A program made the position numbers and the translations under genes. DNA of 55,635 bases from Gammaproteobacteria bacterium. Its GTDB lineage: Bacteria > Pseudomonadota > Gammaproteobacteria > DSM-16500. Below the pieces are notes generated by a model, which had not been told where the DNA came from, ran no database searches, and worked only from the letters and a program-made list of their open reading frames with translations. Shown here in pieces: positions 26,986 to 28,533 of this stretch (positions are counted from its first letter, which is position 1; each line of letters opens with the position of its first letter). Location: assembly GCA_014132615.1 (NCBI GenBank), contig BMAH01000059.1:1-55635 (forward strand), in the 5' to 3' direction.

Positions 26986-27061
26986 TATTATACACTCTGT
27001 ATATTACAGATAATTCATACTTAATGGTTAAATTCATTCGGGCTCATTTTGAATCATGAAA

Positions 27062-27141
27062 CATGTCTATAACGATCAAGTAGTAACTCGACTTTTCTTA
27101 GTCGGTCAAGTTAAAGTCGAAATGAGGAAACAATAGACATG
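27062..27141 (+). promoter_or_regulatory. Structured 5' leader of the tubulin-like gene, start codon in a stem
   Basis: CATGTCTAT (27062-27070) is an exact 9-base inverted match of ATAGACATG (27133-27141), and the ATG start codon (27139-27141) is the end of that stem. Inside, CGACTTT (27089-27095) can pair with AAAGTCG (27113-27119), or its first five bases with AGTCG (27100-27104), but not both. A TATA-like TTAAATT near 27025-27032 would start the RNA just before the stem. The layout suggests control of translation. Evidence is sequence pairing only. Confidence 0.5.
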
Positions 27142-28533
27142 GCACAAGCGTCTGCACCACTACCACCAGCACCAGTTCTTATGACCTGCTTTGGTCACTG
27201 TGGAATTGGTCTTGGAGCAGAATCCTACCGTAGGTTGCTATTGGATGTAGGAGCCGACCCACTAAAGCCAGTTTTGAAGGATTCAAAGGACGAATCCCGA
27301 ATTCTAAAAAGATATGGAAGCACCATTTTGAGATTCCCAGGTGCATATACCGGAGGGGAAACCCCACTTATTCCAAGGGCATTGCTAGTTGACCTAGATC
27401 CAAGGGCTGCAAATCTAATCTTACAATCATATCCAGACTTGTTCGCACTACGAGACAAGCACGTAATCCATGGAGCCGGAGGAGCTGCCAGAAACTGGGC
27501 AGAAGGCAGATCCAGATTCAAAAATGAGGTAACTCAAAAGTGGGACTTTGGAAAACAATTATCAGCATTATCGCCAGAACCCGTCCGAGGCTATACAGTG
27601 CCGTTTGCCATGGGTGGCGGAACTGGAAGCTCATTCGCATGCTCTTTTATTGAATTCATTCGCAGCAACACAAAAGAGCACGCAACAATTGCAACACTTG
27701 GTCTTTTGCCAGAGTTTGGATGGGATCCAGTCATACTGGAAGCAGCTGCAATTAATATTGTGATGAATCTGGAATACCAGATAAAATATTCTGATTGTTC
27801 TATTTTGTTTTCAAACAAGCGACTTCGAGAGGTAGCTCACAAATATGAAAAGCGTGTGGAAAAGATTCCCTCAATTATAGATGATCTGCCAAAAGAGCAC
27901 GAGGTTGGATGGAAGGACTACAAGGGAATGAATCTCATTGCAGCAAACGCAATATCGATGTTCATCTCGTCCTTTGCAAGAGAGACAGAATGGGACATGT
28001 CCAATTACAGGACTTGGCTTGCAACAAAGAGACCAAAGTTTGCAATCCCATGGGTCATACCAATACTGCCTGATGAAGACCAGTGGAACCTAAACACACT
28101 TGCCGGAAACAAACACAACACAATGGATAGCATCATTGAAAATATTAACAAAAAGCAAGATGCCATATTGTTTGATATCGACGAGACTGACATTCGCAAC
28201 CACGGCGGCGCAAAGGATTCTTGCTGTGCACTAGTCAAGGTAAAGGGCGAATTTGACATCAAGGAAAGAGAAATCCTCAAGCGCGTAATCAAGGAACGAT
28301 TCAACATTGAAGATTCCAGAATGATATTTGTCAAGATTCCAATCCTGGATAAAGAGCAGGCAAACGTCACAATTCTGGTAAACACCAAAGCAATCGGTCC
28401 AAAGATCCTAGAGGTTGCAAGAGAGGCTGAGGAGTCATGGGATGCCTACAAGGAAGAATATGGCAGATGGGGCCTCACAACTGAGGATTTCAAACAGTCC
28501 CTCATGGACGTTGTTCACCAGTTTAGCGGCTAG
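27139..28533 (+). CDS. Divergent tubulin/FtsZ-superfamily GTPase
   Basis: 464 residues, close to tubulin length and longer than FtsZ. Nucleotide-site motifs appear in tubulin order: GHCGIGLGAES (19-29, T1), PRALLVDLDP (79-88, like tubulin PRAVLVDLEP), GAGGAARNWAEG (112-123, like GAGNNWAKGH) and GGGTGSS (159-165, T4). The T7 region (WKDYKGMNLIAANAI, near 270) lacks a clear catalytic Asp pair. The C-terminal domain is followed by a helix. Thaumarchaea divide with Cdv proteins and carry such a protein in addition; its job is unresolved. A coiled-coil gene starts 11 bases after its stop. Confidence 0.85.
   Translation: MAQASAPLPPAPVLMTCFGHCGIGLGAESYRRLLLDVGADPLKPVLKDSKDESRILKRYGSTILRFPGAYTGGETPLIPRALLVDLDPRAANLILQSYPDLFALRDKHVIHGAGGAARNWAEGRSRFKNEVTQKWDFGKQLSALSPEPVRGYTVPFAMGGGTGSSFACSFIEFIRSNTKEHATIATLGLLPEFGWDPVILEAAAINIVMNLEYQIKYSDCSILFSNKRLREVAHKYEKRVEKIPSIIDDLPKEHEVGWKDYKGMNLIAANAISMFISSFARETEWDMSNYRTWLATKRPKFAIPWVIPILPDEDQWNLNTLAGNKHNTMDSIIENINKKQDAILFDIDETDIRNHGGAKDSCCALVKVKGEFDIKEREILKRVIKERFNIEDSRMIFVKIPILDKEQANVTILVNTKAIGPKILEVAREAEESWDAYKEEYGRWGLTTEDFKQSLMDVVHQFSG

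Follow-up and report, generated by a model that had tools for sequence, protein, structure and literature searches.

A short open reading frame abutting the artubulin start codon and overlapping a conserved element: a candidate coupled fore-cistron in Nitrosotenuis and its relatives

The window, by which we mean the whole 55,635-nt stretch of DNA analyzed here, carries a tubulin-family gene followed closely by a smaller gene on the same strand:

27139..28533, + strand: artubulin gene, 464 aa
28545..29090, + strand: gene for a 181-aa protein, tied to artubulin in nearly all loci

The product of the first gene matches Pfam Tubulin at 52.9 bits, and its closest solved structures are Asgard tubulins and gamma-tubulin, placing it nearer to tubulins than to FtsZ; what the preliminary description had called a tubulin-like gene is artubulin, not an ordinary FtsZ. 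Judged by genus and identity, it is orthologous to the artubulin described from Nitrosotenuis (PMC3835317). The window is Nitrosotenuis-like, yet the 16S of its assembly is bacterial (RF00177, 1557 bits), so the second PF00091 gene found in the assembly is unusable as an FtsZ to set beside artubulin. Artubulin was absent from every other member examined of the assembly's family, and the window (1-55635) is probably a misbinned archaeal contig. The 181-aa gene lies downstream of artubulin in 78 collected loci across genera (duplicates among them), its protein being ~50-91% identical between loci while other neighbors vary; the upstream neighbor Nre adjoins artubulin in Nitrosotenuis only. The 181-aa protein is confidently modeled (pLDDT 87) as long helices with a small mixed domain, for which a Foldseek search against the PDB gave no match at E 0.001. 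The gene is probably in the same operon as artubulin, and its protein is a likely artubulin partner.

The sequence preceding artubulin holds the following features:

27028..27033, + strand: TATA box (P1), TTAAAT, 28 nt 5' of the upstream-ORF ATG; outscores the P2 candidate
27056..27136, + strand: upstream ORF, MKHVYNDQVVTRLFLVGQVKVEMRKQ, 26 codons from ATG 27056 to the stop TAG at 27134-27136
27063..27116, + strand: conserved core of ~52 nt, from ATGTCTATAACGATCAAG to TTAAAG
27111..27116, + strand: TTAAAG, weak candidate TATA box (P2), 28 nt 5' of the artubulin ATG; closes the core without variation in most leaders
27124..27127, + strand: GAGG, Shine-Dalgarno-like motif within the upstream ORF, read from sequence

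From the box at 27028-27033, transcription is predicted to start near 27056, giving a leader of ~83 nt, a length that makes the ~85 bases proposed in the preliminary description plausible. That description overlooked an open frame that crosses the leader and whose stop lies 2 nt 5' of the artubulin ATG (27139-27141). To compare this arrangement among relatives, orthologues from 57 loci were combined with a family-wide genome search (72/250 genomes matched), yielding 67 distinct sequences, mostly from metagenome assemblies. The occurrence of artubulin is patchy, this search having detected it in 72 of the 250 Nitrosopumilaceae genomes.

All 16 Nitrosotenuis leaders have a TTAAA TATA box followed at 27-29 nt by a start codon, and a stop 1-2 nt before artubulin, while leader lengths vary and one leader uses a GTG start. 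This spacing fits a leaderless upstream ORF in Nitrosotenuis, whose start codon would lie at the 5' end of the transcript. The full pattern, defined as a TATA box followed after 27-30 nt by a start codon, an ORF of 20 codons or more and a stop 1-2 nt before the gene, was found at 16/16 Nitrosotenuis artubulin leaders versus 0/233 and 0/278 (together 0/511) other candidate starts, the latter drawn from mechanically called genes in 400-kb samples of two relative genomes. The Nitrosotalea group possesses a homologous frame (e.g. MKLEQNQYHVYNYQVWTLQSCTIWLKRQVPVPDSD) that ends 2 nt before the artubulin start in 26/28 leaders. Its start codon shifts among nearby positions, at least one of which is kept as read from the alignment, and lies 31-41 nt after the TATA box, so that the ORF is not strictly leaderless there. 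The frame is open in 25/25 sequences of the Nitrosotalea type and in 15/15 of Nitrosotenuis, a set aligned across indels. Forward simulations based on parsimony and a single gene tree closed it in most leaves, leaving it open in 7.2-9.0 (P <=0.0007) and 5.0-5.6 (P 0.0007) sequences, respectively. For Nitrosotenuis, this simulation replaced a substitution-level count of stops, which was uninformative because ancestral reconstruction mixed frames across indels. The stop-start distance and the openness of the frame are both those of a translationally coupled pair in these two groups.

The REEA clade departs from this arrangement. The frame read in Nitrosotenuis and the Nitrosotalea group (frame B) is closed there, and most REEA leaders instead hold another frame (frame C) that runs open from an ATG placed 28-32 nt 3' of the TATA box, with a stop 2-14 nt from the gene. 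The evidence for frame C is weaker, as its openness was not significant in simulation (P 0.12). A hexamer AGTGAT or GGTGAT occupies a comparable place in most leaders outside Nitrosotenuis, and GAGG or GGTG in Nitrosotenuis, as judged by eye. Leaders of the Nitrosarchaeum type (L044-L050, L079-L082) have no core and share a different common block, TTCTTCTACTCTCTTATTAATGAGCAG; several of them feature a short ORF at the TATA-predicted start, and in others the start codon is lost to ATA.

No frame of the leader showed an excess of synonymous changes, and neither the synonymous nor the BLOSUM relocation test for selection on the peptide was significant. Since synonymous changes are not in excess, it is the openness and position of the frame that appear selected, rather than the peptide. 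By comparison among relatives, then, selection keeps the frame stop-free and its stop adjoining the artubulin start, with the encoded peptide not detectably selected.

Conservation is also seen in the nucleotides of the leader. In a set of 40 sequences, 23 of the 52 core columns are invariant, and the core averages 2.2 changes per site, versus 9.0 at artubulin four-fold sites and 10.0 in the 25 nt immediately upstream; in the window's own branch the middle part of the core has diverged and is 1 nt longer. The core was detected in 51/250 family genomes, always at the artubulin leader, and a search for further copies or complementary sites, run with a shortened version at 1 mismatch, gave one off-target match in 11 genomes. 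It persists before artubulin though the upstream gene differs between genera. One locus, L142 (200-400), features two cores 80 nt apart before artubulin with N at the junction, either a tandem duplication or an assembly artefact. Clades read the core in different frames, which indicates that its conservation acts on nucleotides, and its confinement to one gene suggests a dedicated or autogenous factor. The core is thus probably a binding site for a dedicated factor, perhaps in autogenous control of the artubulin operon.

These data lead us to propose, with a probability of roughly 0.6, that the leader comprises a leaderless upstream ORF that is translationally coupled to artubulin and overlaps a dedicated cis-element. 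Transcription from the TATA box at 27028 would begin at or within 1-2 bases of the ATG at 27056, as its spacing predicts. Ribosomes would begin translation at that ATG, without a leader, and after 26 codons reach a stop 2 nt short of the artubulin ATG; there they may re-initiate with the help of the Shine-Dalgarno-like motif within the upstream ORF. Such a route is compatible with what is described for archaea, where reinitiation depends on very short stop-start distances (PMC10666635, PMC6728339) and where termination-reinitiation, shown in Haloferax, frequently relies on a motif that lies within the upstream gene (PMC6728339).

The main rival places the function of the core in DNA. TTAAAG would be the TATA box of a second promoter, with transcription-factor sites on its 5' side, and in Nitrosotenuis this promoter would yield a leaderless artubulin mRNA; the upstream ORF would then be of little importance, or would count just for mRNAs made from the first promoter. 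Within the core, TTAAA shows little or no variation; in 15/16 Nitrosotenuis leaders it is 27-29 nt 5' of the artubulin ATG, which is the usual leaderless spacing, and the nucleotide conservation follows no reading frame. Moreover, Haloferax genes with uORFs often have a second, leaderless start (PMC4983044). However, the motif matches the TATA matrix poorly, with a Nitrosotenuis mean of 0.9 bits versus 4.3 for the upstream box, both scored with a Nitrosotalea matrix because the Nitrosotenuis motif search did not converge on a TATA box. Outside Nitrosotenuis, TTAAAG lies 36-41 nt from the start, so that the Shine-Dalgarno motif would be cut off or left at the 5' end of such a transcript, and a second promoter leaves the open frame and the stop adjoining the start unexplained. 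We consider it unlikely as the principal explanation of the leader, at odds of about one in five; a second promoter and a coupled upstream ORF could nevertheless coexist.

A further reading places the core in the mRNA, as a site bound by the operon's own product, either artubulin or its 181-aa partner, with the passage of leader ribosomes in any frame acting as the gate. We regard this as improbable. Improbable too is a regulatory leader peptide, in which stalling or attenuation would depend on the peptide or on particular codons. A short, conserved and apparently translated ORF directly before a gene is what such a peptide would look like, and frame A (MSTTIKYGLYNLALYG) shows a borderline trend toward conservative changes (P 0.05-0.07). 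Against this, the tests above detected neither purifying selection at the peptide level nor a synonymous excess in any frame, the same nucleotides are read in different frames by different clades, and a scan of the coding strand for sites of the sigma-70/intrinsic type, of limited value in archaea, found no terminator-like site.

The preliminary description had instead proposed a switch, built on a stem that buries the start codon and on a CGACTTT segment free to pair with either of two partners. The repeats in question are:

27062..27070, + strand: outer stem 5' arm, CATGTCTAT, within the conserved core
27133..27141, + strand: outer stem 3' arm, ATAGACATG, spanning the upstream-ORF end and the artubulin ATG; not conserved
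27088..27095, + strand: inner stem 5' arm, TCGACTTT, exact repeat
27113..27120, + strand: inner stem 3' arm, AAAGTCGA; none of the six nearest relatives keeps the pairing

The repeats themselves are as described. CATGTCTAT pairs exactly with ATAGACATG over 9 bases, ATG included, and TCGACTTT can pair with AAAGTCGA or, over fewer bases, with AGTCG at 27100-27104. A perfect repeat of at least 9 bases arose in 0.7% of dinucleotide-shuffled leaders, and in 0/1000 with the start codon inside, which makes this repeat improbable as a single draw. Taken as a whole, the leader's fold is unremarkable (-20.5 kcal/mol, z -1.08; 28/200 shuffles as stable).

The pairing, whose conservation in close relatives the preliminary description had set as its own test, is largely missing there. 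The outer stem is kept in 2/6 nearest relatives, namely L005 (8 bp) and L065 (with a wobble pair), and the start region is predicted closed in these two and in the window sequence; in L004, L006, L062 and L063 the stem is not intact and the start region is mostly predicted unpaired. The inner stem occurs in 0/6, the CGACTTT/AAAGTCG pair recurring only farther out, in L066 and L068. The outer 5' arm owes its conservation to its position inside the core, and the 3' arm is not conserved. RNAalifold returned zero energy and no consensus structure for either Nitrosotenuis or the Nitrosotalea-type set, and almost no structure for REEA. The window structure has more paired cells than slid versions of it, as expected for one row's own structure, and 7/17 of its pairs vary only by pair loss. 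Across the leaders the stems are broken without systematic compensation. Rfam gave no match near the gathering score at the leader; neither a covarying structure nor a described RNA family thus marks the leader as a riboswitch or structured RNA switch. Closure of the start codon was also considered as a general feature of these leaders and rejected: in three groups the values were no lower than those of shuffled leaders, and in the window's clade only slightly below them.

The repeats of the switch are exact and rare by chance in this leader, but with its stems missing from most near relatives we hold it very improbable. Of the preliminary description, the evidence supports a conserved leader with a probable role in controlling the translation of artubulin, and leaves the proposed mechanism unsupported. 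Under translational coupling, the stem of the window's branch can also close the start codon, and a ribosome translating the upstream ORF would open it; this stem is at most a local addition.

The proposed coupled upstream ORF resembles several known systems. As in the termination-reinitiation of Haloferax volcanii and E. coli, which needs a very short distance, the upstream frame ends beside the start and a candidate Shine-Dalgarno-like motif lies in its 3' end; unlike the protein genes of those pairs, the artubulin frame is a leader, ~24-37 codons long, whose product shows no detectable selection, and the distance is +1 to +2 nt where overlaps of 1 or 4 nt are common (PMC6728339, PMC10666635). 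Haloarchaeal uORFs likewise encode 15-31 aa within archaeal leaders, some in genes with an extra leaderless start, but were described in one species and in leaders of 150-250 nt, whereas the artubulin ORF recurs across genera, abuts the start and occupies a leader of ~83 nt (PMC4983044). A comparable design is the leaderless bicistronic system of Corynebacterium glutamicum, where a leaderless short fore-cistron and an SD motif feed a second cistron (PMC10367133); that system is synthetic and bacterial, whereas the artubulin leader occurs in nature, in archaea, with a conserved element overlapping it. The artubulins of Nitrosarchaeum and 'Ca. Nitrosotenuis uzonensis' belong to the same gene family, and the available text of their sources treats the protein and its neighbors, where our subject is the leader (PMC3349469, PMC3835317). 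The artubulin literature, in the portions available, holds no coverage of archaeal tubulin expression.

The start-codon stem carries a caution: a hairpin that stands out in a single genome can arise by accident from conserved start, stop and core motifs. Ammonia-oxidizing archaea do not lend themselves easily to manipulation. The artubulin-specific conserved leader offers a handle on this gene through its predicted transcript start, its mini-ORF with predicted translation and a core testable for binding, and the leader would represent a natural case of a leaderless fore-cistron. Should the core prove to be bound by the operon's own product, eukaryotic tubulin autoregulation would have a counterpart in archaea, though in spirit only.
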